Positions 2,834-23,691 of a stretch of DNA of 32,830 nucleotides are shown here, piece by piece. The stretch is from Deltaproteobacteria bacterium. GTDB taxonomy: Bacteria; Desulfobacterota; Binatia; Binatales; Binataceae. The notes under the pieces were generated by a model that ran no database searches, was not told the origin of the DNA, and was given only the letters and a program-made list of their open reading frames with translations. The stretch is taken from positions 1 to 32,830 of the forward strand of contig JAJYYI010000141.1 of assembly GCA_021801125.1 (NCBI GenBank). Reading direction: 5' to 3'. Position numbers and translations under genes: made by a program. Each line of letters starts with the position of its first letter. The first letter of the stretch is position 1.

Positions 2834-3649
2834 TTAGCGGTTGGTTCTGCCCAACCCGGCGCATTCCATCAACGCATGGGCGATGAATCGCGGTCCTTCG
2901 ATCAGGTCGCGGCGCCATAGTTTTCGCGGCTCCATCACCAGCCGCCAAGCCCATTCGAAGCCCAGCCGCCCAAGCCATTGCGGCGCGCGACTGACCCGCC
3001 CGCTGACGAAGCCAAATGCGGCTCCCACCGCGACCGCGACCGGAACCCGCAAGCGCTCGCGATACCGATGGATCCACCACTCCTGTTTGGGCAGGCCGAG
3101 CGCGACCCACAGCACGTCGGGCCGCGCCTGGTTGATCATCTCGACCAGCTCGAGATCGTCACGCTCCTCGCGGGGTTTGAACGGCGGCGAAAAGAGGCCC
3201 GCGATCCTGTGGCCCGGATAATTGCTTTCCAGCCGGCATCTAAGCGCCGCAAGGGTGTCGTCCGTATCGCCGAGGAAAAAACTGCGGTAGCCGGCCCCGT
3301 CGGCGCGGGCCAGAAACTCGGTGAGCAAGTCGGGACCGGGCACCCGCCCTGGAAGCGGCTCGCGCTGCAGCCGCGAGAGCCATACCGGCGCGATGCCGTC
3401 GGGACAGAACAGGTCCGCCGAATTGAGCACGCCGCGGAACGCCGCGCTCTTGTGCGCCTCCCAGATGCCGTGGAAGCCGGTGGCGACCACGAACCGGCAT
3501 CGCTCGCGCCACCGCTCCGCTATCCAGCCTTCGATCGTGTCCACAGCCTGCGCCACGGTTACCCGGTCCACCCGGCAGCCGAGGATCCGCACATTCGGCA
3601 GACCGCAACCCGCTTCGCGACGATCCATGGCCGCCTCATGCGTTTGCAT
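2834..3649 (-). CDS. WecG/TagA/CpsF-family glycosyltransferase
   Basis: A soluble protein of about 271 residues covering the whole WecG/TagA/CpsF domain (GT26 family). Recognisable pieces are the N-terminal ILGCRVDRVTVAQAVDTI, FVVATGFHGIWEAHK, 'ADLFCPDGIAPVW' with the conserved Asp-Gly, the central YRSFFLGD, and ALGLPKQEWW near the C-terminus. Family members add the second sugar (for example ManNAc or ManNAcA) to a lipid-linked GlcNAc made by a WecA enzyme. That fits the WecA-type gene immediately downstream. The frame is open up to a GTG at 3658 that abuts the upstream stop codon. I prefer the ATG at 3649 because AGGTGG lies about 5 bases before it; the upstream stop codon overlaps this ribosome binding site, so translation is probably coupled. 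The actual sugar donor cannot be read from sequence. Confidence 0.92.
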   Translation of the reverse strand: MQTHEAAMDRREAGCGLPNVRILGCRVDRVTVAQAVDTIEGWIAERWRERCRFVVATGFHGIWEAHKSAAFRGVLNSADLFCPDGIAPVWLSRLQREPLPGRVPGPDLLTEFLARADGAGYRSFFLGDTDDTLAALRCRLESNYPGHRIAGLFSPPFKPREERDDLELVEMINQARPDVLWVALGLPKQEWWIHRYRERLRVPVAVAVGAAFGFVSGRVSRAPQWLGRLGFEWAWRLVMEPRKLWRRDLIEGPRFIAHALMECAGLGRTNR

Positions 3650-3658
3650 CGGCGCCAC

Positions 3659-4666
3659 CTACTCGCCCGCGGGCGCGGGTGCCGACGCGCGACCGCGCCG
3701 GGCCGCGAGTTGCCCCGCGATCCATCGATAGGTCGCCCGCATCCCCGCCTCCAGCGAAAGGCTGGGCTCCCATCCCAGCTTCTCGCGAATCAGCCGGTTG
3801 TCCGAATTCCTGCCGCGGACGCCGGTGGGCCCGGAAATGTGCTTCAGCTTGAGCCGCTTGCCCGCGATGCGCATCGCCATCGCGGCCAGTTCGTCGATCG
3901 TGACCATCTGCTCGGAGCCGATATTCACCGGGCCGGTGAAATCCGACTCCATCAGGCGTCGTACGCCCTCGAGGCACTCATCGATGTAGAGAAACGAGCG
4001 CGTTTGCCGTCCGTCGCCCCAGATCTCGATCTCGGTGCCGTCCGCCGCCTCGGCGACCTTGCGGCAGATTGCCGCCGGAGCCTTCTCCCGTCCGCCGTCC
4101 CAGGTGCCCTCGGGACCGAAGATGTTGTGGAAGCGCGCGATGCGCACCGCGATTCCGCAGTTGCGCTGATACGCCAGGTACATCCGCTCGCTGAACAGCT
4201 TCTCCCATCCGTATTCGCTGTCCGGCGCGGCCGGATAGGCGGAGTCCTCGGCGCAGTTGGGATTATCGGGATCGGTCTGGTTGTACTCCGGATATATGCA
4301 GGCCGAGGACGAATAGAAGATTCTTCCCACCCGGCTCTCGACCGCAGCCCGCGCCATGTTCAAGTTGATCAGCGCCGAGTTGTGCATGATTGACGCGTCG
4401 TTCTCGCCGGTAAAGACGAACCCTGCGCCGCCCATGTCGGCCGCGAGCTGATACACCTCATCGACGTTGCGCGCCGCCGCGCGGCAGACCTGCGGGTCGC
4501 GCAGGTCCTCGGTGAGGAACTCATCCGCCTCGCTCGGGGCGAACTCGGGCGCCTTCAGGTCCACCCCGCGCACCCAAAACCCTTCGCGCTTAAGCCGCTT
4601 GACCAGGTGCGCGCCGATGAATCCCCCGGCGCCGCACACTACCGCCCTGCGAGCGTTAGCCGACAT
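3659..4666 (-). CDS. GDP-mannose 3,5-epimerase homologue (extended SDR)
   Basis: This 335-residue extended short-chain dehydrogenase/epimerase closely follows plant GDP-mannose 3,5-epimerase along its length. It has GAGGFIG (12-18) for NAD binding, LAADMGGAGF, SSSACIYPEY (119-128), the YxxxK pair Tyr152/Lys156, GTWDGGREKAPAA and GDGRQTRSFLYIDE. The four residues I recall as catalytic in the Arabidopsis enzyme (Cys145, Tyr174, Lys178, Lys217) correspond to Cys123, Tyr152, Lys156 and Lys195 here, with identical spacing. The expected reaction is GDP-D-mannose to GDP-L-galactose and/or GDP-L-gulose, a sugar donor for the polymer. The ATG at 4666 is chosen over the GTG at 4672 because GAGGTGG precedes it by 7 bases. 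It is followed directly by the WecG-like gene. The product stereochemistry is inferred, not proven. Confidence 0.9.
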   Translation of the reverse strand: MSANARRAVVCGAGGFIGAHLVKRLKREGFWVRGVDLKAPEFAPSEADEFLTEDLRDPQVCRAAARNVDEVYQLAADMGGAGFVFTGENDASIMHNSALINLNMARAAVESRVGRIFYSSSACIYPEYNQTDPDNPNCAEDSAYPAAPDSEYGWEKLFSERMYLAYQRNCGIAVRIARFHNIFGPEGTWDGGREKAPAAICRKVAEAADGTEIEIWGDGRQTRSFLYIDECLEGVRRLMESDFTGPVNIGSEQMVTIDELAAMAMRIAGKRLKLKHISGPTGVRGRNSDNRLIREKLGWEPSLSLEAGMRATYRWIAGQLAARRGRASAPAPAGE

Positions 4667-4684
4667 ATGCACACCACCTCTCTG

Positions 4685-4718
4685 TGTTGGAGAAATAGAT
4701 CTATGTTGGAGAAATAGA
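4685..4718 (+). repeat. Two tandem copies of a 15-bp sequence, period 19 bp
   Basis: The sequence tgttggagaaataga occurs at 4685-4699 and again, exactly, at 4704-4718. Together they fill most of the short gap between the Wzy-like gene and the epimerase gene, just upstream of the epimerase ribosome binding site. The repeat could be a leader or translational control element, or only a recent slippage duplication. No function is established. Confidence 0.7.
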
Positions 4719-4722
4719 CGCT

Positions 4723-6144
4723 TCAGTAAGCCGCGCTTACGCGCGGCAGCTCCGCCGGAAGCGAATGCGCCATAGCGACGCGTACGCGCCGGACCGACTT
4801 CGCTCGTTTGAGCGCGCGGTTGAGTTCGCCGATATAGACAACCGCCGGGAGCTGAATGAGAAGATCGACGCTATAGAGGGCCGCGCAATTTTCCGGGTAG
4901 CTGCGGAACGTGAAGAACGTCATGATCCCCGCCACCCACAGCAACATCATTCGCTCGCTCGCGTTCAGGCGGCTTCGCCACCAGAGCGCGCGGATTAGCA
5001 TCAGCCACGAGACCGTCAGACCGCCGACGTAGCCGACCGCGCCAATGAATCCGCCGCACAGCAACGCATAGAGAGGGCCGTTCTGGGCGTTTCCGATCTC
5101 CATCGGGAATTGCCGGTCCGCTTGCGGCCCGTAACCGATTAGCGGCGATTCAAGGATTTTCTTCCACGCTTCATGAAAGATGCGCGTGCGGCCCGACATC
5201 GATGCCAACTCCTCGCCCTGCGTACCGCGCGTCGCATACATATAAATGGAATGGAGCGTGTCGTTCGGGATGAACCCGGACACCAACACCAGGGCCATGA
5301 CCGCGAGGATGCTCCATCCTGCGACCCGCGCCCTGCCCTTGAGCAGAATCATCACCAGGGCAAGCGCAAACGCGAGCGAAAAGAGCGAGCCTCGCGACTG
5401 CATCGCCCACACCAGGTAGAAACAGGGGACGAAAACTGCCGCCCACGCAAGCCTCCAGTATCCACGGGTCTCCCAAAGCGCGACGAATGCGATAATCGCC
5501 GGCACTGCGGCCATCCGTGAGAGTCCGGAGGAGCGGACCATTGCCATCCCGGCGACCGAGGGCATCCGGTTGACCACCGCGTAACCGCTGAGGCCCGCCG
5601 ATGTCTCAGCCAGAAGTTGACCGCGAGCCACGAAGACCACGACAGCGAGCACTGCAGAACAAAGAAGCCACGTCAGGCGGTTAAGCTCGCCAGCACGATG
5701 CAACGCGGTTCCCTCCCGCATGTAGACGTCGAGCGCGGCAAACGCACCGAGATAGGCGAGACCCCAGTATCCAATTTCGAACCATGGATCGGCGTAAACG
5801 CTGGAGAGCAGGCAAATGGCGCCGTACCAGAGCCAAAGTCCCTCCGGCAATGTCAAGTTCCGCCGCCGAGCCCGCTGATTCAAAACCCGATAAAATAGCC
5901 ATACGGCCAGCATCAGGAGCGGGAAAGCGGCCCTGAGGCCATTGAAGGCGCCGGTCCATCCGCTCGCGATGTAATCGAAGTCGAGGTTCCAAGGGCCGGT
6001 GTTGATTCCCGCCCACAAAACAAACCAGCAAACCGCGCCGAAACCAATGCCGATGCCCGTCAAGCGCTCGAGCAGCGTCACACGAGTCCGTGACCATTCG
6101 CCTTTACGAACGATCGTAGGCATCGGTTGCAACCGGGAATTCAT
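4723..6144 (-). CDS. O-antigen ligase/polymerase-like (Wzy-type) membrane protein
   Basis: A protein of about 473 residues with some ten to twelve hydrophobic segments and a large loop in the C-terminal half. It fits the O-antigen ligase/Wzy superfamily. The loop carries SMSGRTRIFHEAWKKI followed by 'SPLIGYGPQADRQFP'. This is the 'GRxxxW...P..G.G' pattern common in Wzy_C proteins. The probable role is polymerisation of flipped repeat units, or ligation, at the periplasmic face. The start is uncertain: ATG at 6144 or 6123, neither with a good ribosome binding site. Both overlap the end of the upstream GT4 gene (stop at 6104), and such an overlap suggests translational coupling. This is the second such protein in the locus (see 17123-19987), and sequence reading cannot decide which one is the polymerase. 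Confidence 0.8.
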   Translation of the reverse strand: MNSRLQPMPTIVRKGEWSRTRVTLLERLTGIGIGFGAVCWFVLWAGINTGPWNLDFDYIASGWTGAFNGLRAAFPLLMLAVWLFYRVLNQRARRRNLTLPEGLWLWYGAICLLSSVYADPWFEIGYWGLAYLGAFAALDVYMREGTALHRAGELNRLTWLLCSAVLAVVVFVARGQLLAETSAGLSGYAVVNRMPSVAGMAMVRSSGLSRMAAVPAIIAFVALWETRGYWRLAWAAVFVPCFYLVWAMQSRGSLFSLAFALALVMILLKGRARVAGWSILAVMALVLVSGFIPNDTLHSIYMYATRGTQGEELASMSGRTRIFHEAWKKILESPLIGYGPQADRQFPMEIGNAQNGPLYALLCGGFIGAVGYVGGLTVSWLMLIRALWWRSRLNASERMMLLWVAGIMTFFTFRSYPENCAALYSVDLLIQLPAVVYIGELNRALKRAKSVRRVRVAMAHSLPAELPRVSAAY

Positions 6145-7408
6145 GCTCCAATGCGGGGGCCGAATGCGCCGCCAATGCGCGCCTGTATACCCCGTCGATC
6201 GCGTCCGCTTTCGCTTCCCATGAATACTCGCGCGCGCGGCATAGCGCGCCCGCGGCCAGGCGCCGGCGGCGCTCCTCGTCGGATGCGAGCCGCGAGATGG
6301 CCAGCGCGACTCCATGCTCGAATTCGCGCGGCGCCCGAATTTGGATCTTGATCCCGCACTGATCCGTGATCACGTCCGAGAACCCGCAATGGTCCGGACA
6401 GACGACGGGGAGCCCGCTGGCAATCGCTTCGATAATCACGGTCGAGGTCAGGTCCTTCAGGCTGGTGATCGCAAAGAGATGGGCGCGGCGCAGCCCTCTC
6501 AGCGCTTCGTCACGCGAGACTTCTCCATGCCACGCGCACCGGCTATCGAGCCCAAGGCGCGAGGCGAGCGCTTGCCAATCCCCGCGACATGGCCCGTCGC
6601 CATAGATATCCAGATGCCAGTCGGTCTGGACCGCGCGCAACGCACTGAGCAGGAGCGGAAGAGCTTTTCCCGGAAGATGCCGGCCGCTCCACGCTATTCG
6701 CAGCGGTTCTCCGGGAGCGCGAAGGGCGAATTCCGATGCCGGTTCGAATGGAGTACCGACTTCACATATCACCTCGCTCGGCACTCCATACCATTTGCGA
6801 ATTTCGGCCTGTATCGCCGAGGTAGCTGCGATTACTCCGTCCGCGCGGCTGAACGCCTTGCGGGGACCGCGCAGGAACCTCTTATGAGCGGAGTTAACAA
6901 TGTTTCGCGCCGCGTAATAGATGGCGCCACGAGCGCCCATCTCCGGAAGCAGGCGCCATGGCGTGTTTTCAAGGCCGCCGATCGGCCCCCATACGAAAGG
7001 AATGTCAAGCTTCCACAGATGGCCCGGAAACCGGAAGCCAACGTAGGTAACCTGGTGGACCAGGTCGAAGCCGATCTCACGATGAAGCTGGAACCCAACT
7101 GCGAAAGCATCACGAAGCCACCATCGGTATGCCCAGTTCACGATCGGTTTGACGATGGAATTTTCGATCCCGATCCAGATCGGACTCGGCCGGTAGTGCC
7201 ACAGCTTTTCATCGACATAGACGAAGTGGATGCGGCCGCGCTTTTCCGGCGCACGGCGCAGGGCATATTCAAGGTCGCGCCGATGATATGCAGCGGTGAG
7301 GACCCATGTTTCGTGATTGCGCGCGATCGCGTTCACCCAGCCCCATCCGACGCCCTCCTCCGAACCACGGAACGGGTTACACGCGTACGCGCATGCCAGC
7401 ACCTTCAT
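6104..7408 (-). CDS. Glycosyltransferase family 4
   Basis: A GT-B fold glycosyltransferase of about 434 residues. The N-terminal MKVLACAYACNPFRGSEEG and GWGWVNAIA are the usual opening of this GT4 subgroup (GSExGxGW). The middle has 'PFVWGPIGGLENTP'. The C-terminal donor-binding half shows LRIAWSGRHLPGKALPLLL, LDIYGDGPCR and 'TSTVIIEAIASGLPVVCP', the E-x7-E-like nucleotide-sugar site. The ATG at 7408 overlaps the stop of the methyltransferase gene as ATGA, so it is preferred over more upstream starts. It would act in the cytoplasm, extending the lipid-linked repeat unit. Acceptor and donor sugars are unknown. Confidence 0.9.
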   Translation of the reverse strand: MKVLACAYACNPFRGSEEGVGWGWVNAIARNHETWVLTAAYHRRDLEYALRRAPEKRGRIHFVYVDEKLWHYRPSPIWIGIENSIVKPIVNWAYRWWLRDAFAVGFQLHREIGFDLVHQVTYVGFRFPGHLWKLDIPFVWGPIGGLENTPWRLLPEMGARGAIYYAARNIVNSAHKRFLRGPRKAFSRADGVIAATSAIQAEIRKWYGVPSEVICEVGTPFEPASEFALRAPGEPLRIAWSGRHLPGKALPLLLSALRAVQTDWHLDIYGDGPCRGDWQALASRLGLDSRCAWHGEVSRDEALRGLRRAHLFAITSLKDLTSTVIIEAIASGLPVVCPDHCGFSDVITDQCGIKIQIRAPREFEHGVALAISRLASDEERRRRLAAGALCRAREYSWEAKADAIDGVYRRALAAHSAPALEHEFPVATDAYDRS

Positions 7409-8127
7409 GGATTCGCAGAGAGACCGTTCTCGCGCAGCATCTGACCCCGGTCGGATCGCAGCGTACTCAGGCAGATCATGGATTTCCAAAGGAGCGGCAG
7501 GCGACCGGAAAACCTGCTTACCGAAAGGTCAAAGCCGGCTTCCGACAACATATTTTGCAGAGTTTTCACCGAAAAAAACTTTATGTGCCCGCACTCCCAG
7601 TCGACGGTGTGGTGGCGATCCCAACCATTGACCAGGCTCAGCACAAGGTTTTTGACGTAGCCGTGGTAGGGAGTGGAGAGCAACATCACCCCTCCTGGTT
7701 GCAGGTGATTGCGCATGTTTTCCAAAAAAAGGCGCGGGGCGAACAAATGTTCGATCACTTCCAAGCTAACGATCAGGTCCCACCCGCCGAGAGGCGCCAA
7801 CGCAACGAGATTGTCGTACACGGAGCGAAGCTGGAAGTGGACACCCGGATAGGTCGTCCGAGCCAGTTTAATGCCCGACGGCGAAGCATCGATGCCGACG
7901 ACCTGGTGCCCCATACCCGCAAGCTGTGCGGCTATGAATCCAGTTCCGCACCCTGCATCAAGAATTCGTAACTGTCGCCCTCGCGGGAGCATTGCCTTGA
8001 CGGTCGGCCACAAGTAGGCGTGGTGGGAATGCTCACCGCCGCCCTCCCATTTGTACGCACCTTCAAATCGCCCGGGGCTCTTATTTTCGGTTGTGCTCGG
8101 TACTTTCGTGCGCTCGAACTCTGCCAC
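7405..8127 (-). CDS. Class I SAM-dependent methyltransferase (UbiG/Methyltransf_23 type)
   Basis: A 240-residue Rossmann-fold methyltransferase. Motif I is ILDAGCGTGF (residues 55-64), the acidic residue that binds the SAM ribose is in VVGIDASPSG, and the post-motif SLEVIEHLFAP is typical of UbiG-like enzymes. The second half has 'LQPGGVMLLSTPYHGYVKN' and HIKFFSVKTL, a pattern common in methyltransferases inside polysaccharide loci. It probably methylates a sugar of the repeat unit or the growing chain. Translation should start at GTG 8127, with AGAGGG about 8 bases upstream. Its end overlaps the next GT4 gene by four bases. A 245-bp spacer separates it from the beta-helix gene. Confidence 0.88.
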   Translation of the reverse strand: MAEFERTKVPSTTENKSPGRFEGAYKWEGGGEHSHHAYLWPTVKAMLPRGRQLRILDAGCGTGFIAAQLAGMGHQVVGIDASPSGIKLARTTYPGVHFQLRSVYDNLVALAPLGGWDLIVSLEVIEHLFAPRLFLENMRNHLQPGGVMLLSTPYHGYVKNLVLSLVNGWDRHHTVDWECGHIKFFSVKTLQNMLSEAGFDLSVSRFSGRLPLLWKSMICLSTLRSDRGQMLRENGLSANP

Positions 8128-8201
8128 GAGAGTGCCCTCTATACGCCGTTTGGTCGCCGAAGACGGTGTGCCGTTATCGCCGCTGCCCTACCTACGCAGT
8201 C

Positions 8202-8215
8202 CCCGAATGCTCGGG
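8202..8215. repeat. Small inverted repeat in the 8128-8372 spacer
   Basis: cccga-atgc-tcggg forms a 5-bp stem with a 4-base loop between the beta-helix gene and the methyltransferase gene. There is no T-rich tail on the minus strand, so it is at best a weak stem. No clear promoter or terminator was found elsewhere in this 245-bp spacer. Confidence 0.3.
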
Positions 8216-8372
8216 ACAGCGCGCCCCGGTCGGACCTCGCGGCGGCTTCGCGCAGACTTATGCGAATGAGAACCATCAGGCCAAGCCAACATTTCGGATG
8301 GGAAAGCCGTGCCTTCTTACGAAGTAGAGGTCATTTCGCCCTTCGGCCTCCCGGACGGCAGCGGACACGACG

Positions 8373-10121
8373 TTAGGGAACGCAAATCCATCTGTTATTC
8401 AGGCCATGCACCCAGGACCCCGTCCTGGCGCCGCGCGAAGTACACTCGCCCGGCGGGTTCGCGGGCCCATCGCAGTTTGGACAATAGAAACTCGCCCCAT
8501 TTATTACTTTCCCCGGCAGCGGCCAGCGTAGACCCTCGCTCACGGTCATGCCGGCGACCCTTACGTCACCGGTTGTGTTACGAATTGGTGGCCTATATCG
8601 TCGCACAGCCTGCCCGGTGTCCTTAAACATGCAGAGCGTCTCACCGCGATTTAGTTCCACGCGTTGATTCGCCGCTAGCGCGGTGGTCGTGCCCCCTTTG
8701 AGGATATCCCATGACCAGCATCCGTCCACCGGTGTCCAAGTTATTTCGTTAAAATTAGCCTTACTAAGCATGGCGTTACCTGTCAACGTTGAGCCTGCTG
8801 ACGATGGCAGAGTAACGCCTCCATTCCTGTCATGACACACTATGTAATACTTATACGCGGTACTACCCACGGCTCCTCTGGGACTCACCGTCGGCGCCTT
8901 CGGTGTAGGCAATTGCGAGGCTGTCATTAAGCCCGCTAACTCCGCGCCGGAATGAATGATTGCCTCGCCGATTTCTAGCGGAGCATGGCCAAATACACCG
9001 TACTGGTTCGCTGGTCCCGCAGTAGACCATCGCAGCTGGCTTGCGCCGTACGTGCCGGGAGCTGACAATTCAGCAACCGAATTCCCGAAGGGGTCTGCGC
9101 CGAAGACAAATCCATTCTGGACCGCCTCATAGTACGGCCATATTCCATGCGTACCACCGCCTCCGCCAGTCTGATGGAAGTAGTTGGTGGTGTTTCCCGA
9201 TCTATCTATAATGCTGCCTCTTTCAAACAGGCCGCCGGTGCCTATGATTGAATTTTCCGTCGCCCCACTGCTCAGGAGAATGGGTCCAGCGGCCTCAATG
9301 TAAGGGTTAACAATAGCATTCCCGTTGGCGCTGTATACATTGGTTTCAAATATTATAGCACGCTTAATATGTTTGCCCTCAATATCCAGTGAATACACTT
9401 GATTGGACGCCGCACCAGCAATGTCCAGCCCAATCGCGCCCGAAGCAGTGCCGCCGAAGATCTGATTTTGATTAGCTGTTCTGTCGAGCCATCCACCTCG
9501 GCTATTAGCACGCGCTACTACACCAATTATCTCATTATAGCACGAGCACGTCGCGGTTCCGCCGAGCTTCCAGCCGTTGTCAACCATACCGATGTTTACT
9601 CGTTCCAAGGTCGACTGAAGTGCGTAGGTCATATCAACACCAACGCTACCCGCCGTACCGTCACCAGCCACGGCGAAATCGTGGAGATAGACGTGGTAGA
9701 CACCACTGCCTTTGAGCGAACCAACATAACGGAGGGCCGCGCCAGGCCCGTTAAACGTGATCTCCGTCTCGGCACCTTCGCCGCCCACTTCCGTTGCCGG
9801 AAAGTAGAGAATGCTGTGCGCACCAAGAGGGTAAGTGCATGTCCCTAGCTTTAAATGGACTTGCTTGTTATCGCCACCCAAGACAACGTTGGCATCCGCA
9901 GTTGAAAGTTTTCCGCTGAGACAGAGGCCCCGTGCGTCAATGATTCCACCGCTTGACGGAAGGGCTGCAACCGCAGCGTTGATCTTGTCGGCCCACGTGG
10001 CACCTCCGAGTCTGTTCGCGATCTCAACACCGTGTCTTTGTAACTCCTGCGCATTAGCTTTAGGCGTAGCGATAGCGACAGCTATGACGGAGATTGCCAG
10101 CGTCAGGATGTAATGTTTCAT
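8373..10121 (-). CDS. Secreted right-handed beta-helix protein (pectate-lyase-superfamily-like)
   Basis: A 582-residue protein with a clear Sec signal peptide (about residues 1-24, ending ATPKANA). The 'GGATWADKINAAVAALPS' and GGIIDARGL segment is the start seen in many beta-helix proteins of the pectate-lyase superfamily. Residues about 90-330 are rich in short repeating strand-turn units with N and G (for example NEIIGV, NQIFGG, NQVYSL, NAIVNP, NSIIGT), consistent with parallel beta-helix coils. A separate C-terminal part (about 400-582) contains YKYYIVCHDRNGG and a Cys-rich end. It may cut, bind or modify the exported polysaccharide, but no catalytic residues can be named. It reads visibly more AT-rich than its neighbours, and spacers of 245 bp and 83 bp flank it in an otherwise packed gene row. 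These features suggest later acquisition. No good ribosome binding site is seen before the ATG. Confidence 0.75.
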   Translation of the reverse strand: MKHYILTLAISVIAVAIATPKANAQELQRHGVEIANRLGGATWADKINAAVAALPSSGGIIDARGLCLSGKLSTADANVVLGGDNKQVHLKLGTCTYPLGAHSILYFPATEVGGEGAETEITFNGPGAALRYVGSLKGSGVYHVYLHDFAVAGDGTAGSVGVDMTYALQSTLERVNIGMVDNGWKLGGTATCSCYNEIIGVVARANSRGGWLDRTANQNQIFGGTASGAIGLDIAGAASNQVYSLDIEGKHIKRAIIFETNVYSANGNAIVNPYIEAAGPILLSSGATENSIIGTGGLFERGSIIDRSGNTTNYFHQTGGGGGTHGIWPYYEAVQNGFVFGADPFGNSVAELSAPGTYGASQLRWSTAGPANQYGVFGHAPLEIGEAIIHSGAELAGLMTASQLPTPKAPTVSPRGAVGSTAYKYYIVCHDRNGGVTLPSSAGSTLTGNAMLSKANFNEITWTPVDGCWSWDILKGGTTTALAANQRVELNRGETLCMFKDTGQAVRRYRPPIRNTTGDVRVAGMTVSEGLRWPLPGKVINGASFYCPNCDGPANPPGECTSRGARTGSWVHGLNNRWICVP

Positions 10122-10204
10122 ATCAACAAATTGGTCTTGTAAACGTCAGCGTCCCCCCGACGCGGCTCCCAACTCGGAAGCTCGGCCGTGCAGCAATGCG
10201 AGTC

Positions 10205-11329
10205 CTATTCAGAGACGTGTTCCATCTCTCGCTCGAAGTTTGCCGCTATCGCCTGCCATGAGAATTCAGCCTTCACTCTTTGCCGGGCGCTCCGAACAAG
10301 ACCTTCAGCCGATTCCCGATTTTCGAGAAGCTCGCCGATCGCGTTAGCGAACTCCAGCGAACTGCTCGCAAAAAGCGCGTGCTCTCGGTGGCGCAACCCA
10401 AGTCCCTCCGCGGCCTTCTCCGTTGCGACGACGGGCAAACCAGCGGCCATCGCTTCGAGAATCTTGAGCCGAGTTCCAGAACCGGAAAAGATCGGCGCGA
10501 CCGCGATACCGCACGCCGCCACGAACGCCGCAAAGTCCTCGTAGGGGACCGAGCCGACGTTCCTGATCCATGAGTCGCGGTACGGCGCGCCGCCGCCTGT
10601 AAGCGCAAGCGCCGCGGACGGGTACCGCTCGCGCACCCCAGGCATTACGGATTTAACGAGGAAATCGACAGCCTCGCGATTCGGCGGATAGGCATAAAAC
10701 CCCGAAAAGAGCGCGGTCTGCGCGTTCAAGCCGTATTTCGCACGCATCCTTGCGACGGCTTCGGGCCGAACACCGGCGAAGCGCTCGAAATCGACGCCGT
10801 TGGGAAGCAGGATCGGCCTGACACCGTAAAGCCTTGCGAAGTGCGCCTGGTCTGTCGTGGAGACGGCGGTCGAGAGGTCGGCGCAACGGAGCAGACGACC
10901 CTCGGCCCATCGCGTCAGAGCAGCGATCGCGCGGCCATTTCGATACAGTCGAAGCAGATATTCGACATTGTGCGAGTGATAAATAATCCGGGTGCTCGGA
11001 ACGGCTTTGCGTATAGCTTTGAGGAGCATCAAATGATAAACGGCCCATGATGCGCCTTCCAGAATCACGAAATCCGGCTGGAACCCGGAAAGGTGGTTCA
11101 CTGTCGACTTGATGCAAGGGCGAAGCGAGGCGATCTTCCTGAATTTCCCTTCCGAAGCTGCTGGCACTGTTACGACGCGTATGCTTTTAAGCTCGATTGT
11201 CCCCTCCGAAGATCCGACCTGTATCAGGAGCGTCTTTCCGGGGAGAAATTTCGCTACGTTGAACGTGACCGCCGCCGCTCCGCTTGCCGGCGGATACGCC
11301 TCGTAGAAGCAACAAAGCGCGGTTATCAT
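10205..11329 (-). CDS. Glycosyltransferase family 4
   Basis: A 374-residue GT-B glycosyltransferase. It has 'IIYHSHNVEYLLRLYR' in the acceptor half, ILLPNGVDFERF before the linker, 'LFSGFYAYPPNREAVDFL' opening the donor half, and 'GSGTRLKILEAMAAGLPVV' with VATEKAAEGL as the nucleotide-sugar site. This subgroup is common in exopolysaccharide and sugar-transferase loci. The ATG at 11329 has GGAAGG a few bases upstream. It lies 21 bp downstream of the FkbM gene and 83 bp before the beta-helix gene. The sugars involved are unknown. Confidence 0.9.
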   Translation of the reverse strand: MITALCCFYEAYPPASGAAAVTFNVAKFLPGKTLLIQVGSSEGTIELKSIRVVTVPAASEGKFRKIASLRPCIKSTVNHLSGFQPDFVILEGASWAVYHLMLLKAIRKAVPSTRIIYHSHNVEYLLRLYRNGRAIAALTRWAEGRLLRCADLSTAVSTTDQAHFARLYGVRPILLPNGVDFERFAGVRPEAVARMRAKYGLNAQTALFSGFYAYPPNREAVDFLVKSVMPGVRERYPSAALALTGGGAPYRDSWIRNVGSVPYEDFAAFVAACGIAVAPIFSGSGTRLKILEAMAAGLPVVATEKAAEGLGLRHREHALFASSSLEFANAIGELLENRESAEGLVRSARQRVKAEFSWQAIAANFEREMEHVSE

Positions 11330-11350
11330 CGGGAGCCTTCCGAGAATCCG

Positions 11351-12109
11351 TTACGTGGGCAAGTGTTCGCGGCGCAAAAAGAAGTAGTTAATCGCGCGCT
11401 CATCTGTGCGCCGAGATTCAAAATAGCCGTCTCTCCAGACATACGTGCCGTACTTGAGATCCCTCAAAATAGCTTGGAGCTGCGCCCCTTCAGATGAGGG
11501 ATCGTCCAGGTCAGACGAGACCTCCACACAGAACGCCGGTAGACACCGCGAAAGAAGCAGTGACATGCCTCGCACGCAAGCCAATTCATGCCCCTCGGTA
11601 TCTATCTTCACGAAGGTAACAAGCGGTTCGCCGGCCTCAATGAACCACGAGTCCAGCCTGACCGAAGAAATTTGAAAACAAAAGGAACTCGACGTCTGTC
11701 CGACGCGCGCAAGGTGGTAATTGCGCACGCCTCTGCTGTCCTTGGGAACCGACATTGAAACTCTCGTATCCGCATCCGAAACGGCCCGATCGATCAGGAC
11801 GACGTTGCCAAGGCGGAAGCGCTCAATGTTGGCGCGGAGAAGTGCAAACGTCTCCGGTATGGGCTCGAAACTCCAGACTCGGCCGGTGTGGCCCACGAGA
11901 CGGGACAAGAAGTGCGTCCAAACGCCGACATTCGCTCCTACGTCTACAACGTGCGTGCCCGGTCGGACCAGTAGTTGTGTGGCGGCGAGATCCCAATCGC
12001 GATGGACTAGATCTTGACGTAGGAGTTGCGCATAGTGGTGTGCCTTGATGCTCAGGCGCAGCCGTCGCGGGGTTCGTTCAACCAATGCGGCCAGAGTGCG
12101 TCTAAACAT
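11351..12109 (-). CDS. FkbM-family methyltransferase
   Basis: A SAM-dependent methyltransferase of 252 residues. It has HVVDVGANVGVWT (SAM-binding motif I), RVWSFEPIPETF (motif II with the FEP signature of the FkbM family) and FVKIDTEGHELACVRG (the family's KxDxEGxE box). FkbM enzymes O-methylate sugars or sugar-like hydroxyls, so a repeat-unit sugar is the likely substrate. The ATG at 12109 overlaps the stop of the ALG11-like glycosyltransferase gene by 8 bases (ATGTTTAG), so the two are probably translated in a coupled fashion. A longer reading frame to 12160 exists, but would run much further into the upstream gene. Confidence 0.9.
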   Translation of the reverse strand: MFRRTLAALVERTPRRLRLSIKAHHYAQLLRQDLVHRDWDLAATQLLVRPGTHVVDVGANVGVWTHFLSRLVGHTGRVWSFEPIPETFALLRANIERFRLGNVVLIDRAVSDADTRVSMSVPKDSRGVRNYHLARVGQTSSSFCFQISSVRLDSWFIEAGEPLVTFVKIDTEGHELACVRGMSLLLSRCLPAFCVEVSSDLDDPSSEGAQLQAILRDLKYGTYVWRDGYFESRRTDERAINYFFLRREHLPT

Positions 12110-13310
12110 AGCCGTTCGATGATCTCTCTTGCCTGGACGCGATGAAGTCCTCAACCACATGGCGGATGCCGCGCATGAAGGTCTCGACGGAAAATTTCTC
12201 AGCTTGCCGCTTCAGGTGCTCGCGTAAGGCCACCAGCAATGTTGGACAGCTGAGCACGGCGCAGATCTTCTCAACCGCCTCCTTGCTATCCGTGTACAAA
12301 AGGGCGTCGTGGCCAAGGATCTCGGCCGGTCCGCCTTCAGCCGGGGCGAACGTGATACAGCCTGCCTTTACCATCTCCGCGACCGCTATGCCGAAAGGTT
12401 CTTTCGCGCGCGCGTGAATACCGAAAGCGCTCTCCGCTATCAACCGGTCCTTGGTCTCGCCACACTGGCGCCCGTGCAGCACGATCCAGCCGCCTTCGCA
12501 GCCACAGCGTTGCTCGAACTGCCAGCCATAAGCCGTATCCCCGGCATCGCCGATAATGTGCAGCTCCACGTCATGGCCACGACCGCGCACTGCCTTAAGA
12601 ATTTCTATCATTCGTTCAATGCGCTTTTCCGGCGAAATTCTCCCCACGCACACGAAACGACGAAGCTTCCGTTCCGACGGAACTTGCACCGCGCGCATCG
12701 TTACCGGCGGATACAGAACCTGGGCTTGAATTCCGTGTCGCCGGTCCAGGATTTCCTTAGTCCAGCCGGAGTTCGCGATAACCACGCCCAGATTGCAGAC
12801 ATTGCGGTCTGAGCTTGGGCCTGCGATGCCGTTGGAAAGTGCCAGATAGCCCCGCCGCAGCAGCGGGCTCAGATGTAACAGGCGCCTTGTTCCCGTCGGT
12901 GGCGGATCGCCACTCCGGCGCAACGCCTCGTCCCAAGACAAGTCGGCGACGAAATGAATACCCGGCCGGCCGAAATCACCGATGTTGTATGTATTGATCA
13001 GCACGTCGAAGCAATCGAAATAACGACGCATGCCGCGACTAACGAGCGCACCGCGCAGCGCTGCGCCCCAATCGGCCTTGGCAAGGGGCCAAGGAAGCGG
13101 TATCTCCAGCGTTTGGCAGTCGTCGGCTCCGATCGAGGTGCCGTAAAACGAGTTGAGAGCCGCGAGGTCTATCCGGCCACCTGCGATCAATGCGATCCGG
13201 TAGTCGCGCTTGAGCGCCTCTAGCGTCCACATCGCTGCTGCCTCCGAGCCACCACGCCCAAGCCGCGGATGGAATACCGCCAGCGACAATTTGCTTGCGC
13301 AACGAGGCAT
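12102..13310 (-). CDS. Glycosyltransferase family 4 (ALG11-like)
   Basis: A 402-residue GT-B enzyme. The N-terminus has LAVFHPRLGRGGSEAAAMWTL, the donor half has FVCVGRISPEKRIERMIEI and VELHIIGDAGD. Near the C-terminus, AKEPFGIAVAEMVKAGCITF followed by APAEGGPAEI matches the arrangement seen in ALG11-type mannosyltransferases (FGI-VVE-MAAG... then A-SGGP). Transfer of mannose from GDP-mannose is therefore plausible, and the epimerase in the same locus uses GDP-mannose too, but this remains inference. The ATG at 13310 directly abuts the stop codon of the upstream GT2 gene (TGAATG). Confidence 0.88.
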   Translation of the reverse strand: MPRCASKLSLAVFHPRLGRGGSEAAAMWTLEALKRDYRIALIAGGRIDLAALNSFYGTSIGADDCQTLEIPLPWPLAKADWGAALRGALVSRGMRRYFDCFDVLINTYNIGDFGRPGIHFVADLSWDEALRRSGDPPPTGTRRLLHLSPLLRRGYLALSNGIAGPSSDRNVCNLGVVIANSGWTKEILDRRHGIQAQVLYPPVTMRAVQVPSERKLRRFVCVGRISPEKRIERMIEILKAVRGRGHDVELHIIGDAGDTAYGWQFEQRCGCEGGWIVLHGRQCGETKDRLIAESAFGIHARAKEPFGIAVAEMVKAGCITFAPAEGGPAEILGHDALLYTDSKEAVEKICAVLSCPTLLVALREHLKRQAEKFSVETFMRGIRHVVEDFIASRQERSSNGYV

Positions 13311-14456
13311 TCAGCTCCGCTTCAATAATCTGGGCTTGGGGCCGAACAGGATTCCGCGCAACAACCCCGAGCAGCGCTGCTCGAGGCCCTTCAAAACGTG
13401 GGCGACCTTGGGCGTCGTGGCAGAAGCTAGCAGCCACAGGCTGTAAGCAAGCTTGCGCCGGACATTCCAATACGGATGCCGCCATGTCGCCGATAGCGCT
13501 TTTCGCGTCAGGGTGAGCAAATCGTCGGGCCAGGGATGGTCATGTGGGCTCTCCCGCAGCGATCGTATGCGCCCTACCCAGTGCGGAGGGAACCTGCTGA
13601 GCCAAGTCTCACAAGGCCCAATCCTGTCGGGGGCAAGCCTGTGCAGAGACGAATGAAGCTTCAGGTCGAAAGAGATCGCACGTCTCAACCCGGGGACACT
13701 CATGAAGGCGGCGGCCCAGTTGTTCTTCCCGTGCACCCGGTAGTGCCCAAGGGCCCGGCCGAGCGACTTGACTTCGCCAAACAAAGAACTGGCGAGGGTC
13801 AGATATGCGTCTGCGCATATCGGCCAATCCTCTTCCGGAACAGGCATTATCTTTTGCAGAACCGTTCTGATGAATGCGTTACCGCTGGTGGGCGAATCGA
13901 CCCCGAACGGACCAAAGGTGTGATCTGGAACCACGGAGCCGCCGACGCGTTCGCCCGAGCGGTTCCCGAGCCCATCAATCACCTCCAGCGGAAATTGGAT
14001 TCGGACGACCCCATCCCGCCAGGCGGATACCAGCGTCGCGGCGGCTTCCGGTATCAGAGTATCGTCGGCGTCCAGAAACATCACTATTTCGCCGCTCGAC
14101 GCAGCGAAGCCCGCATTCAGGGCGGAAGCCTGGCCGCCGTTGGCCTTGTATATCGCCCGTATCCTATCCCCGTAGCTCTCGATCACCTCACGGGAATTAT
14201 CAGTCGAGCCGTCATCGACGACTATGACCTCGCAATCCTCATAGGTTTGAGATAGCGCGCTATCGACAGCGGCGGTCAGGAAGCGCGCATAATTGTAGTT
14301 ATTTACGATGATGCTAACTTTTACGACCAGTTCGTCCGTATGCCGTGTCTCACGAGGCAAGCTGTGGACCCGTCCTTGGCGAAATCGCCGACCCCCGCGG
14401 TCCGCCATGGAGATGGAGATGCTGCTCGGGCTGTTCGTCTCTTTGTCTTGGCCCAT
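13311..14456 (-). CDS. Glycosyltransferase family 2
   Basis: A 381-residue GT-A fold glycosyltransferase. It has VSIIVNNYNYARFLTAAVDS at the start of the fold, 'VIVVDDGSTDNSREVI' and the metal-binding EIVMFLDADDTL. All are textbook GT2 features. A polar N-terminal extension of about 45 residues precedes the fold, so the start at ATG 14456 (5 bases after the upstream FkbM stop) may be replaced by a start further in. The C-terminal 100 residues carry hydrophobic patches that could associate with the membrane. It is predicted to add one sugar to the lipid-linked intermediate. Confidence 0.88.
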   Translation of the reverse strand: MGQDKETNSPSSISISMADRGGRRFRQGRVHSLPRETRHTDELVVKVSIIVNNYNYARFLTAAVDSALSQTYEDCEVIVVDDGSTDNSREVIESYGDRIRAIYKANGGQASALNAGFAASSGEIVMFLDADDTLIPEAAATLVSAWRDGVVRIQFPLEVIDGLGNRSGERVGGSVVPDHTFGPFGVDSPTSGNAFIRTVLQKIMPVPEEDWPICADAYLTLASSLFGEVKSLGRALGHYRVHGKNNWAAAFMSVPGLRRAISFDLKLHSSLHRLAPDRIGPCETWLSRFPPHWVGRIRSLRESPHDHPWPDDLLTLTRKALSATWRHPYWNVRRKLAYSLWLLASATTPKVAHVLKGLEQRCSGLLRGILFGPKPRLLKRS

Positions 14457-14461
14457 TGCGG

Positions 14462-15406
14462 TCAGTTAACGTGGTAGAGAACTCGTCCCTGGAATGGTCT
14501 GACGTCGGCGCGGCATCGGTCGCAGCGTGGGAAGCCCGGATCGCGGAAGTGCTCGAGTAGTTTTAAGCAATTTTCCCGCTCGGACGGTATGGCCACAGCG
14601 TGGAAGTTGCCGCTTACTTGCTCCATAGGAACGCGACTGCCGAAAAGACTGCATTTGTAGTCGTGCCGCGCCAGCACGCCCGCCACCGCCTCGGCGGTTT
14701 CGTGCAGCTCAATCACCAATATCGGCCGGTGCGTCGCGAGCAGATTGTCGGCACCGGCGAGCGCGGCGACCTCGCCCCCCTCTATGTCCATCTTCGCGAC
14801 TTCGGGCGGCTTGAGCTCATGCCGGTCGAGGAGACTGTCGAGCCCGCGTACGTCGACTGTGATTTCGCCGGTATACGCGTTCGGGCGTTGCTCGCTATTT
14901 GAGAGCATTCCCCAATCGTGCCGAGCCGACACCAGGAAGCGGGCCCGGCCGTCGGTTGCGCCAAGAGCGTAAGGGAGGACTGTGACGTTCGAGAACCGGT
15001 TAGCGCGCGAATTATGCTGAACAATATCGAGATTACGTGGGACGGGCTCGAAACTCACGACGTCTCCGAGCGGCCCCACCAGCCGAGCCGCCATGATCGT
15101 ATAGATTCCCAGGTTTGCGCCTATGTCATAGAAGACCATGCCGGGAGCGAGCAAAGCGGCGAGCGCGACCTGCACGTCGGCCTCCTCAGCATACTCCCCG
15201 CCGGCGAGGTAATTCAGATATGATCCGCCGGTGTTGAAAAGTAGCCCCGCGGCCGGTCCCGTGCGTATAGTGAGATCGCGAAAGCGCAGCAGATCAGCGA
15301 GCGGATCAGTGCAACGGCGGATAAATATGCTTCGACTTCGTGCATAAGCGGCCACTGCGAGCCACGACCCGGGGATCCGTCTGCTTGCCTTGTCAATCAG
15401 GCCCAT
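14462..15406 (-). CDS. FkbM-family methyltransferase (second copy)
   Basis: A 314-residue protein with 'VFYDIGANLGIYTIMA' (DIGANLG, 94-100), VVSFEPVPRN (FEP, 119-121) and VAKMDIEGGEVAAL (DIEGGE, 207-212). These are the three FkbM family boxes, all intact. It is only distantly similar to the FkbM protein at 11351-12109, so the pair is not a recent tandem duplication. A strong ribosome binding site (GCGGAGG) lies 8 bases before the ATG at 15406. It probably O-methylates a different position or sugar of the polymer. Confidence 0.9.
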   Translation of the reverse strand: MGLIDKASRRIPGSWLAVAAYARSRSIFIRRCTDPLADLLRFRDLTIRTGPAAGLLFNTGGSYLNYLAGGEYAEEADVQVALAALLAPGMVFYDIGANLGIYTIMAARLVGPLGDVVSFEPVPRNLDIVQHNSRANRFSNVTVLPYALGATDGRARFLVSARHDWGMLSNSEQRPNAYTGEITVDVRGLDSLLDRHELKPPEVAKMDIEGGEVAALAGADNLLATHRPILVIELHETAEAVAGVLARHDYKCSLFGSRVPMEQVSGNFHAVAIPSERENCLKLLEHFRDPGFPRCDRCRADVRPFQGRVLYHVN

Positions 15407-15443
15407 TGAAGATGCCTCCGCGCAATTAGCCGATGCGACCGCA

Positions 15444-16964
15444 TCATCTTGTGACTATTAAGGCTAGGCCGGCCGAGCGCGCGTAGCCGCGCACGAACTC
15501 ACGCTCCGCCGGTTCGAGAAGCGCTTTCCACGCCGTAGCCGCGAACAAGGCGAGCGTGGCGGCGAGAAAGAGGCTCTTCATCGCGAGGTCCATCGGAAGC
15601 GTGCCAAGGGCGATCACAAGGATGGCGCAAGCTGCGATTCGACGGACGCGTAAAACGCCCGGCGCGGCGAGCGGCGCGATCCGGCCGGTTATAACGAACA
15701 GCACCGCGGTATCCACCGTCGCCCGCAGCGCCCATGCGCAGGCGGCGCCGGCGATGCCGTAGCGGGTGAGCAAGAACCACAGGACTAGAAGATAGAGAGG
15801 CGCCACCGTGAGGTGCAGAATTGCCCCGATGTCGGGACGGTCAGCGGCCTGAACCAGCGAGAACGCTATCCATCCAATGCAGTAGATAAAGATGCCGACC
15901 GCGAGCAGTCGCATCACGGTGGCGCTATGGGCGGCGAACGACGGGCCGAGCCATAGCGAGAGAACCTCGGGCGCAAGCGTGACAAGGATCAAAATGATCG
16001 GGAACAGGGCGAGCATGACGTAACGGGTGGCGCGTTCGAATAGGACGGCGGCGCGCGCCGGGTCATTCGTCGACGTGGCGGAGAACGCGGCAAATGCGAC
16101 GCCGGTGATCGCGCTAGGAACGACCATAAGCTTGGACATCGCCTGGTAGGGAACGGTGTAGTAGGCCACGGCCGCCATCGACAGCATCGCACCGATAAGA
16201 AAACGGTCGAAATAGGTCAGGATCGGGCTGATGACATTAGATACCGTGACCCATCCGCCGAAACCGAGCATCGGGCGGAGCACTGCGCGCCGCGCACGCC
16301 GGCGATGCCTAAGCGCGGGCGCAACCCGGAGGCAGAGGGCGAACGTCGCTAGCCATCCGGCGACGCGCCCCAGGACCATCGCGGCGACCATCGCATCGAT
16401 CGCATGGGAAAACGGAATCACGACGAGCGGCCCGAGATAGGAAAAGATGCCGGTCGGGACGCGGACGGTGTTGATCAGGTCGAAGCGCTGGAAGGCCGAC
16501 AGCGTGCCGGTGAGAGTGCCGCCGCTGATCACGAACGGCATCGAGAGCGCGAGCAGGTAAAAGGCGCGCACGGTTTCGGGACGGAGCGCGGGCGGAATCT
16601 TGAGCACATCGTGCACCAGCCACGGCGTGAGCACGGCAACCAGAACGGCGGCCGCGGCGCCGAATACGAGCATCAGGTAGAGGGAGGTCCAGAACAGTCC
16701 CGGGATGCGTTCGCGGTCGCCTGACGCGGCGGCCTCGGCGATGAACTTGGTGGCGGCGCGGCCGAGGCCGAAGTCGAACAGGCCGAAGTATCCGACCACC
16801 ATCATGCTGAGCGTGAGCACGCCGTAGCGGTCCACGCCGATGCCGCCGATGAGCGCGGGGATGGCGAAGATCGCGACCAGGAACGGCACGACCTCGCTTA
16901 CGAGGTTGATGATCGTGTTGCGGGCGAGCAATCGACCGCTGGTGAGATTGAGAGCGTTGTTCAA
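15444..16964 (-). CDS. wzx: Polysaccharide repeat-unit flippase (Wzx/MOP superfamily)
   Basis: A membrane protein of 506 residues with about 12 to 14 hydrophobic helices spread evenly along it, the usual size of Wzx proteins. Family-like segments are NTIINLVSEVVPFLVAIFAI at the N-terminus, 'YGVLTLSMMVVGYFGLFDFG' followed by LGRAATKFIAEA, and 'FDRFLIGAMLSMAAVAYYTV' followed by PYQAMSKL. It should flip undecaprenyl-linked repeat units to the periplasmic face. The start appears to be a TTG at 16964 without a good ribosome binding site, so it is uncertain. The spacer upstream (16965-17122) has only a 5-bp stem near 17071-17084 and no recognisable gene. Confidence 0.9.
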   Translation of the reverse strand: MNNALNLTSGRLLARNTIINLVSEVVPFLVAIFAIPALIGGIGVDRYGVLTLSMMVVGYFGLFDFGLGRAATKFIAEAAASGDRERIPGLFWTSLYLMLVFGAAAAVLVAVLTPWLVHDVLKIPPALRPETVRAFYLLALSMPFVISGGTLTGTLSAFQRFDLINTVRVPTGIFSYLGPLVVIPFSHAIDAMVAAMVLGRVAGWLATFALCLRVAPALRHRRRARRAVLRPMLGFGGWVTVSNVISPILTYFDRFLIGAMLSMAAVAYYTVPYQAMSKLMVVPSAITGVAFAAFSATSTNDPARAAVLFERATRYVMLALFPIILILVTLAPEVLSLWLGPSFAAHSATVMRLLAVGIFIYCIGWIAFSLVQAADRPDIGAILHLTVAPLYLLVLWFLLTRYGIAGAACAWALRATVDTAVLFVITGRIAPLAAPGVLRVRRIAACAILVIALGTLPMDLAMKSLFLAATLALFAATAWKALLEPAEREFVRGYARSAGLALIVTR

Positions 16965-17122
16965 GATTTCGCCCGTGCCGCTTCTGACGCTGTCAATTCC
17001 GTCAAAGCTCGCGTTTCAGCCATCGGATAATCGAAGGCGAGGGCGCTTGAACTTCGTAACCGCCCTTTCGCACCGATGACGGTGATCCGGCTGACACACC
17101 ATCGCCCCCCTCGAGTTACCGG

Positions 17123-19987: not shown

Positions 19988-20031
19988 AGCGAATCAACCA
20001 GCGGTGTTGTTTGGAAATCTGGTAAGAAGTC

Positions 20032-22404: not shown

Positions 22405-23585
22405 TAGGGCACACCCGCAGTGACCATCGTAATCGGCGCCCACATGAATATGCCTTGCATCGCATAATAGACGGCGTAGCCGGGAATGCGCAGCGTAGAA
22501 TATCCTACCTGCACTACATCGTTGGCTTGTACGGGCATGTCGGGTGCTTCACGCTCCTTGACCTTGTCGAGGTTGACTTTGATCACCATGGGGCGCCCCT
22601 TACCATCCTGCCGAAACACCTTCACCGAGGTCATGTCGGCCGCGTACAGCGGACCACCCGCCGCGGAAACCGCGCCAAAAACTGTAAGACCCGGGGTAAT
22701 CGGTATGACCTTGGGGGTGTACACCCATCCGACCACGGTAACGTCTCCGGCCCGCGGGACATAAATGGTATCGCCTGGTATCACGGGCATTTCCATGTAG
22801 CGCTCGTCATGGCTGCCGGGCGAAAGATCGATAACCAGCGGCGTGAGGGCTCCGTCATGGTAAAAGAGCCTGTGGGCCGAGCCTGTTCCGAGAGACGCCT
22901 CATTGGTCTTGCCAGCCGCATTCGCGCCTGCGGATGGAAGCGCGGGCTCCGTGAATCCAACGTTTCGCACCGACGTCCGGTCAGAAGAGCCCGTCTCAGC
23001 CCCTTCGCCGGCTGTCGTCAACGCCGCTGGAGTGAGCAACACCTCTTGCGCGCCAGTGTGCCTTATCCCACCCGCACGCTGTATCATCTCGCGGATCGTG
23101 TCGGCGGGACCATTCAGCGTATACATGCCGGGTGTGCGCACTTCTCCGAGCACGGCTGCCTGGCGGCTGCTGAAGGTCTTTACGAAAAGATCAACCTGGG
23201 GATGGTACATATATTCCCCGAGCCGCTTCACAAGCTTTTCCCTGACCCCGTCCTCCGACAGGCCGGCGACATGCATAGTGCCAAGAAGAGGCAGGGAAAT
23301 ATCTCCGTCCTCGGTCACACGCACCGTTCTTTCTCTAAACTCGTGAAGGCCGGGGACTGAAACCTGCAGAACGTCGCCGGAGCCGATCGGAAACTCGGGA
23401 CGTTTTCCGCGGCGCGCGGCCCACAGCGCCGCGAGGCGCTCGCCGTTGCGATTGGTAAGAGCAAGGTGCCCGACGGGCGCACGGGAACCGCGGACGGCTG
23501 CGGAAAGTCCCGCCGATCTCGATGATCCGCATCCGAGCGCGAGGCCGGCGACGATAAAGAAACAGAAAATCCTGCCTGTTCTCAC
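22404..23585 (-). CDS. wza: Wza-type outer-membrane polysaccharide export lipoprotein
   Basis: From GTG 23585 the product is 393 residues and starts with a compact lipoprotein signal (RTGRIFCFFIVAGLALGC, lipobox LALGC). The frame is also open to a GTG at 23627, which would make an unusually long n-region. A weak GGAAA lies 7 bases before the chosen start. The domains are a poly-export (PES) domain opening with 'FPIGSGDVLQVSVPGLHEF', then SLBB-type domains (AAVLGEVRTPGMYTL and VTVVGWVYTPKVIPI). The C-terminal GYAVYYAMQGIFMWAPITMV could be the amphipathic helix that forms the outer-membrane pore. A low-complexity insert rich in A, G and T lies between the SLBB domains (about residues 190-240). 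It should export the polymer together with Wzc. Confidence 0.93.
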   Translation of the reverse strand: MRTGRIFCFFIVAGLALGCGSSRSAGLSAAVRGSRAPVGHLALTNRNGERLAALWAARRGKRPEFPIGSGDVLQVSVPGLHEFRERTVRVTEDGDISLPLLGTMHVAGLSEDGVREKLVKRLGEYMYHPQVDLFVKTFSSRQAAVLGEVRTPGMYTLNGPADTIREMIQRAGGIRHTGAQEVLLTPAALTTAGEGAETGSSDRTSVRNVGFTEPALPSAGANAAGKTNEASLGTGSAHRLFYHDGALTPLVIDLSPGSHDERYMEMPVIPGDTIYVPRAGDVTVVGWVYTPKVIPITPGLTVFGAVSAAGGPLYAADMTSVKVFRQDGKGRPMVIKVNLDKVKEREAPDMPVQANDVVQVGYSTLRIPGYAVYYAMQGIFMWAPITMVTAGVP

Positions 23586-23691
23586 TTGATTGTTTCCGAC
23601 GCGTTCGACCGCTGCGCCCGACAACACTTAGCCGTAAGCCGACGGCTTGACACGCCATCCACTGCTGGAGAAAAGGAAAGAACCTGAGACC

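Follow-up and report, generated by a model that had tools for sequence, protein, structure and literature searches.

A tailspike-like, predicted secreted beta-helix protein encoded within a Binataceae polysaccharide locus

The gene and its surroundings

A densely packed polysaccharide locus of a Binataceae bacterium holds, among its glycosyltransferase genes, a gene for a predicted secreted beta-helix protein. This raises the question of where such a gene comes from and what its product might do to the polymer of the locus. The window, the whole stretch of DNA analysed (32,830 nucleotides), is the entire contig C58 of a Candidatus Binataceae MAG of 3.50 Mb in 150 contigs. Contamination of the MAG is 4.2%, and the placement of the contig is backed by related loci in three Binataceae. 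To our knowledge, there has been little experimental work on the phylum of this host. The gene, here called the window gene, and its surroundings are:

2834..23627, minus strand: host polysaccharide locus, with genes for WecG/TagA, epimerase, Wzy_C, GT4, methyltransferase, the spike-like window protein, GT4, FkbM, GT4, GT2, FkbM, Wzx, Wzy_C with TPR, Wzz/tyrosine kinase, and Wza-type export protein
7405..8127, minus strand: downstream neighbour, SAM methyltransferase (PF13489)
8128..8372, no strand: 3'-side spacer of 245 bp, resembling none of the compared tail and glycan proteins
8373..10121, minus strand: window protein CDS (tailspike-like secreted beta-helix protein, 582 aa), ATG start, homologues in 16 relatives
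10122..10204, no strand: 5'-side spacer of 83 bp, without a sigma-70-like site (7300-11400 scanned)
10205..11329, minus strand: upstream neighbour, GT4 glycosyltransferase, with one close match among 57 genomes (60%, G016:C23)

Pfam scans place the window gene among glycosyltransferases, on the same strand as the glycan genes on both sides. The open frame around it is 590 aa long, so only 8 codons are available above the ATG of the 582-aa CDS. The original prediction gave it spacers of 245 and 83 bp in an otherwise packed operon, and these lengths are exact; all other adjacent genes of 2834-15444 overlap or lie no more than 50 bp apart, and the next wider intergenic gap, 158 bp at 16965-17122, lies outside that stretch. 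The gene was also described as AT-richer. Its GC (54.8%) and GC3 (56.1%) are indeed the lowest among the 16 window genes, the others having a GC3 of 61.9-84.9%. Its mean codon log-likelihood (-0.026) is the most extreme of the 16, but a second codon measure, relative entropy, places it mid-range (0.079). The window gene thus differs from its neighbours in GC and codon use, and the equality that would have spoken against insertion is not seen. Low GC (56-57%) is seen in the neighbouring FkbM and methyltransferase genes as well, so the gene lies within a low-GC variable segment and is not an isolated case.

Signals for expression are sparse. The 30 bases upstream of the window gene contain no visible Shine-Dalgarno sequence; the poor ribosome binding site had been noticed correctly, but it is not distinctive, since several neighbour genes lack one as well. 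Across 7300-11400 no sigma-70-like promoter was found, and the two terminator-like matches in this range (minus strand 10514-10495, inside the upstream GT4 gene, and plus strand 9964-9977) do not fall at the ends of the window gene; sigma-70-like and terminator-like matches are both rarer here than in shuffles. Flanking repeats amount to one 14-nt pair at 86%, and the spacer comparison recognised no phage debris in either spacer.

Loci related to that of the window occur in G012 (C64), G017 (C186) and G016 (C23), with identities of 60-67% for Wzx and 62-71% for GT4. The window gene is missing from all three (best tblastn E 0.43), which backs its insertion by comparison and means that the locus can do without it. 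Together with the methyltransferase, GT4 and FkbM genes, it belongs to the part of the locus that varies between related loci. None of the spikes of the 16 relatives has the lowest GC3 of its own locus; since they are not unusually AT-rich, the low GC3 is peculiar to the window copy, suggesting that this copy came recently from a source of its own. With a recent arrival suggested, the gene could be transient.

Architecture and predicted fold of the protein

Four parts are distinguished in the window protein:

10050..10121, minus strand: Sec-type signal peptide, residues 1-24, by heuristic rules, with probable cleavage between ANA and QE
9087..10049, minus strand: right-handed parallel beta-helix, residues ~25-345, predicted, with low confidence after residue 317
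8577..8909, minus strand: Ig-like C-terminal domain, residues ~405-515, common to the spikes of relatives, with weak fold matches
8376..8501, minus strand: four-Cys module CxxC-C-WxC, residues 541-582 (C547, C550, C560, C580)

The signal-peptide-like start, MKHYILTLAISVIAVAIATPKANA followed by QE, passes a loose rule that 74/186 control ORFs also pass and, at Met1, a stricter rule passed by 30/186. Both are rules of thumb and not SignalP, with 16-40% positives among controls. The signal peptide expected by the original prediction is thereby upheld as a prediction by rule. The start is of the Sec type, and a twin arginine is absent from the sequence.

The AlphaFold2 model of the whole protein has a mean pLDDT of 62.9, falling below 50 at residues 317-402. 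In VIA comparisons, in which matches within 1 Z count as tied, residues ~25-345 align with right-handed beta-helix enzymes at Z 21-24. These include an alginate epimerase/lyase (8ja4, Z 24.3), AlgE6 (5lw3, 23.9), AlgE4 (2pyg, 23.8), a Geobacillus virus protein (7chu, 23.8) and the Sf6 tailspike (2vbk, 23.1), as well as Klebsiella depolymerases and RbmB. Foldseek returned nine matches at E <= 0.001 among viral structures and none against the PDB (best E 0.0056). The beta-helix that had been anticipated is therefore predicted by AlphaFold2 and VIA, and no fold lacking one appeared. Sequence families gave no match in Pfam (E <= 1), NCBIfam (E <= 0.01) or PHROGs, phmmer found nothing among PDB chain sequences at E <= 1, and tblastn against phage and plasmid records returned nothing. 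Peptide-pattern scans built on the single window protein were unproductive.

The structural matches bear on the possibility that the protein is a sugar-modifying beta-helix enzyme, a C5-epimerase or similar of the AlgE/AlgG kind, which would alter residues of the polymer without cutting it. The three best VIA matches (8ja4, 5lw3, 2pyg) point that way, and the predicted fold is shared with AlgE-type alginate epimerases and with pectate-lyase and GH28 enzymes. However, these matches are tied with 7chu and 2vbk, the window protein lacks the sequence signature of any such family at the thresholds given, and its kin by sequence are spikes rather than epimerases. An epimerase is therefore an unlikely identity. 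Residues D62, D76, D181, D246, E248 and D306 are invariant across three aligned sequences; that these acids are catalytic is a guess.

The separate Cys-rich C-terminal part that had been described resolves into the Ig-like domain and the four-Cys module. The AlphaFold2 model of the C-terminal 184 residues reaches a pLDDT of 79.4. Its best fold match, the SPO1 capsid protein, has a Z of 7.9, below the meaningful level, with alpha-latrotoxin third, and there are five viral matches at E <= 0.001, some of them named tail proteins. The four cysteines are invariant in 17/17 aligned rows, three of which are other viral-contig fibres, and two of these three look signal-peptide-bearing by the looser rule. 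Among 202 ORFs of relatives, the four-Cys motif occurs in 14, all of them spikes.

Kinship with spikes beside phage-tail genes

Of 57 genomes of the class, the host included, 17 match the window protein at E <= 0.001; all belong to the 35 Binataceae, and none to the 22 others. The loci of all 16 matching relatives were compared, using greedy ORF lists that include some antisense ORFs. Most relatives match only parts of residues ~340-582, inside open frames of 767-1585 aa, and the five best have C-terminal identities of 44-51%. The spike of G016 (L028:8644-11013) matches over residues 29-548 (31%, E 8e-49) and is the only full-length relative among the 57 genomes; two viral-collection contigs add to it, one being a piece identical to that of G016. 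The beta-helix is homologous in the tail-locus spikes of L028 (31-33%) and L059 (34%). The G016 spike, which lacks the C-terminal four-Cys motif, stands after gpI, a 154-aa protein and a fibre-like protein. Homology to spike-like proteins encoded next to phage-tail genes of sister genera thus takes the comparison with tailspikes beyond the analogy first drawn; it covers the C-terminus and, in a single relative, almost the entire protein.

A conserved N-terminal module (IPNFxGxGAG...CxDC) is carried by 14/16 of the relatives' spikes. It is missing from the window protein, where the sole hit, of 10.6 bits, falls on the C-terminal Cys module (535-581); this module resembles the N-terminal one over 41 residues (39%, E 0.002). 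When starts within the first 60 residues are allowed, 14/16 of these spikes pass the signal-peptide rule, against 38/186 neighbouring control ORFs; at the listed first residue the counts are 11/16 and 30/186. The L030 and L038 spikes fail the rule and pass with later starts only. Sec-like starts on tail-locus spikes are odd, as tail assembly would be cytoplasmic.

In phage records, tblastn of the L057 protein gave partial matches in four records, one over the Cys module at 48%. The L054 spike gave partial matches in 79 records; the best 15 of the 79 cover 11-24% of the query, and none of these 15 lies over the query ends. The same search with the G016 spike was unproductive. Two viral-contig fibre-like proteins, L057:8609-10129 and L058:8426-10195, combine a signal-peptide-like start with the same four-Cys C-terminus. 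Only 2/9 of their neighbours match anything in PHROGs, so the phage nature of L057 and L058 rests on the viral collection. The viral-contig loci L047-L055, L059 and L060 were considered as independent phages and rejected, being pieces of the Binataceae-type cassette described below.

In 8/16 loci (L023, L025, L026, L027, L028, L030, L033 and L038) the homologue adjoins the same contractile-tail genes. The order of this cassette is terminase-like, Mu portal, Mu protease, gpT, sheath, tube, gpU, D, V, J, I, fibre, spike. Pfam recognises gpU (PF06995), gpV (PF04717), gp25 (PF04965), gpJ (PF04865, 7e-49), gpI (PF09684), the gp53-like fibre (PF21882), sheath (PF04984) and tube (PF04985), with the gpD hub below cut-off. 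The cassette spans L074:4639-18070 and L026:665-10317 in G033 (C34) and is also found in L076/L028 (G016:C3), L077/L027 (G021:C12) and L075/L023 (G008:C20). Upstream head genes were identified by Pfam in G033 (terminase-like, Mu portal, Mu protease, gpT) and in G016 (Mu protease), and by BLAST all four are also present in G016, G021 and G008, and the portal in G005. Mu-type head genes therefore accompany the cassette in the four genomes checked (G033, G016, G021, G008), and a headless tailocin in the relatives was rejected on this account. Two proteins upstream of the terminase, a holin-associated muramidase-like one (L074:932-1474) and a weakly BcepMu gp16-like one (L074:3-584), are both below cut-offs.

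Best local matches across those four genomes are 78-89% identical for gpT and 70-75% for the portal; gpJ is 66-76% identical over nine genomes and the spike 28-50% over eleven. Between the congeneric G016 and G027, the tail genes (78-96%) and one compared flank (83-94%) are alike and the spikes unlike. As far as sequence tells, these unlike spikes on alike tails (L028:8644-11013 and L080:8125-10896) represent spike exchange. The cassette is a candidate for either a GTA-like element maintained by vertical descent or an ancient BcepMu-like prophage. The literature covered holds no report of a tailocin or, judged by title, of a pertinent gene transfer agent for Binatota, which is weak evidence that none has been published, as subscription journals were scarcely covered. 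An MS-channel gene lies near the spike in G033, G021, G008, G031, G007 and G030, with GlnA in three of these.

The remaining homologues have other surroundings. L029 and L036 adjoin another type of tail gene, the L029 neighbour matching PHROG tail proteins and that of L036 being its homologue, and the L024 homologue stands after a tape-measure protein. Five (L031, L032, L034, L035 and L037) have no cassette tail genes within the stretch taken: L032 lies beside RsmB, L035 beside MscL, L037 beside a dehydrogenase, and L031 beside proteins without a Pfam match. At L034:103-11850 (G012:C152), a second spike has genes for SLBB export, SLT and Wzi (capsule assembly) as neighbours and lies downstream of the flagellar genes for FlgK and flagellin.

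Baseplate_J is present in 25/35 Binataceae (22 at E <= 4e-46) and absent from the window genome and its congener G001; a sheath gene was likewise not found in the window genome. The window protein as the tailspike of a resident contractile-tailed prophage was accordingly rejected. A search with a lambda/GTA-type tail protein gave no match in the window genome and, having no positive control, is uninformative. The window gene might instead be a phage gene, newly arrived or left behind, that has no function in the host, as its lowest GC3, the missing close orthologue, its absence from related loci and the lack of a sigma-70-like site and Shine-Dalgarno sequence would suggest. Against this stand the intact frame of 582 codons, the signal-peptide-like start, the conserved cysteines and C-terminus, the spacers free of recognisable phage debris, and a host genome without contractile-tail genes of the two families tested. 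A functionless remnant thus seems improbable.

A putative role in polymer processing

We lean, with some reservation, towards a stand-alone exported tailspike relative that was recruited to the locus and acts on its polymer. The window protein would be a free-standing relative of the spikes of the Binataceae virion cassette, exported by its predicted signal peptide. It would recognise polysaccharide through its beta-helix, and it has the C-terminal module with four cysteines but not the N-terminal module. Its gene is placed in the variable glycosyltransferase segment of a Wzx/Wzy-type locus, with which it may be co-expressed, and recruitment would have run from tail to locus. Once exported, the protein would meet its presumed substrate, the polymer of its own locus, in the periplasm or outside and act on it there. 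By analogy with a known enzyme, described next, it is most likely an endo-depolymerase or a trimming or modifying enzyme, possibly with lectin-like binding. Trimerisation and disulfides are also probable. The original prediction saw the protein as a possible lyase or hydrolase of the polymer, or as a protein that binds it, and we infer the same.

The analogy is with WceF (PDB 6tgf) of the stewartan cluster of Pantoea stewartii, a plant pathogen unrelated to the present host. WceF is described as a tailspike-fold glycosidase encoded among glycosyltransferase genes; mutation of wceF lengthens stewartan, from which a part in setting chain length was proposed (PMC7949094). WceF carries a Tat signal and, in addition, head (residues 34-146) and neck domains of the P22 type (PMC7949094). 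Like WceF, the window protein is encoded inside a polysaccharide cluster among glycosyltransferases, is predicted to be a right-handed parallel beta-helix and has an export signal by heuristics. It differs in its Sec-type start and in its Ig-like and four-Cys C-terminus. The P22-like head and neck were not found in it, with no Pfam match; the first predicted strand begins at residue 59, and the ~34 mature residues ahead of it leave no room for a head domain of the WceF type as described. In Foldseek, 6tgf is a weak match (E 0.13), and among the PDB chain sequences searched by phmmer, a set that may or may not include 6tgf, the window protein has no match. The absence of WceF from the best 50 VIA matches listed excludes nothing. 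The novel function for which the gene had been singled out is unsupported as such, because a tailspike-fold glycosidase in an EPS cluster is already published (PMC7949094).

The cassette spikes (e.g. L028:8644-11013 and L026:6568-10317) resemble the window protein in their signal-peptide-like start, in the Ig-like and Cys C-terminal modules (L026 and others) and in the beta-helix region (L028). In contrast to it, they bear the N-terminal module and adjoin fibre or baseplate genes. The C-terminal module held in common with tail-gene spikes, in G016 together with the beta-helix type, and the missing N-terminal module would also suit an anti-phage or superinfection factor, in which unattached spikes would cover or remove the receptor polymer and so block adsorption by particles with related spikes. 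The gene sits within a biosynthesis operon, however, and Pfam scans recognised no adjoining defence gene, which makes such a factor quite unlikely.

Recruitment of a spike to the polymer of its own species finds a further parallel in TspA, the tailspike of the Rhodobacter capsulatus GTA, which degrades the biofilm of its own species and can leave the particle (PMC13420450, preprint). It is likewise the spike of a phage-derived particle; the term 'signal peptide' is absent from the text of PMC13420450. A wider scheme would have a GTA-like particle with Mu head and contractile tail inherited vertically in Binataceae, its signal-peptide-bearing spike exchanged to suit the surface glycan of each strain, while the same spike family also serves particle-free in polysaccharide loci to remodel the glycan, so that one pool fills both roles. 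We regard this scheme as doubtful. The best full-length relative would fall in a genome sharing the locus by chance with a probability of 0.09-0.19, so the match of spike to glycan is only a hint, and a strict match is weakened further because the beta-helix type of the window protein recurs in just one (G016) of the three genomes that hold related loci.

If recruitment to the locus is true, the window protein would add another example of a tailspike relative put to use in polysaccharide biosynthesis, one whose link to spikes encoded next to phage-tail genes of sister genera is a matter of sequence and not of fold alone. The natural pair of the G016 tail-locus spike and the free spike of the window makes the recruitment of tailspikes for trimming of the own polymer testable, and may lead to enzymes that depolymerise the glycans of uncultured bacteria.

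Two minor observations concern the rest of the window. The locus encodes two Wzy_C (O-antigen ligase/polymerase) proteins (4723-6315 and 17123-19987), the second with C-terminal TPRs. An AAA protein of 1137 aa (26136-29549) has partial similarity to a TOMM kinase/cyclase, far under the family cut-off, and its gene adjoins the lowest-GC stretch of the window (29501-30000, 47.8%).
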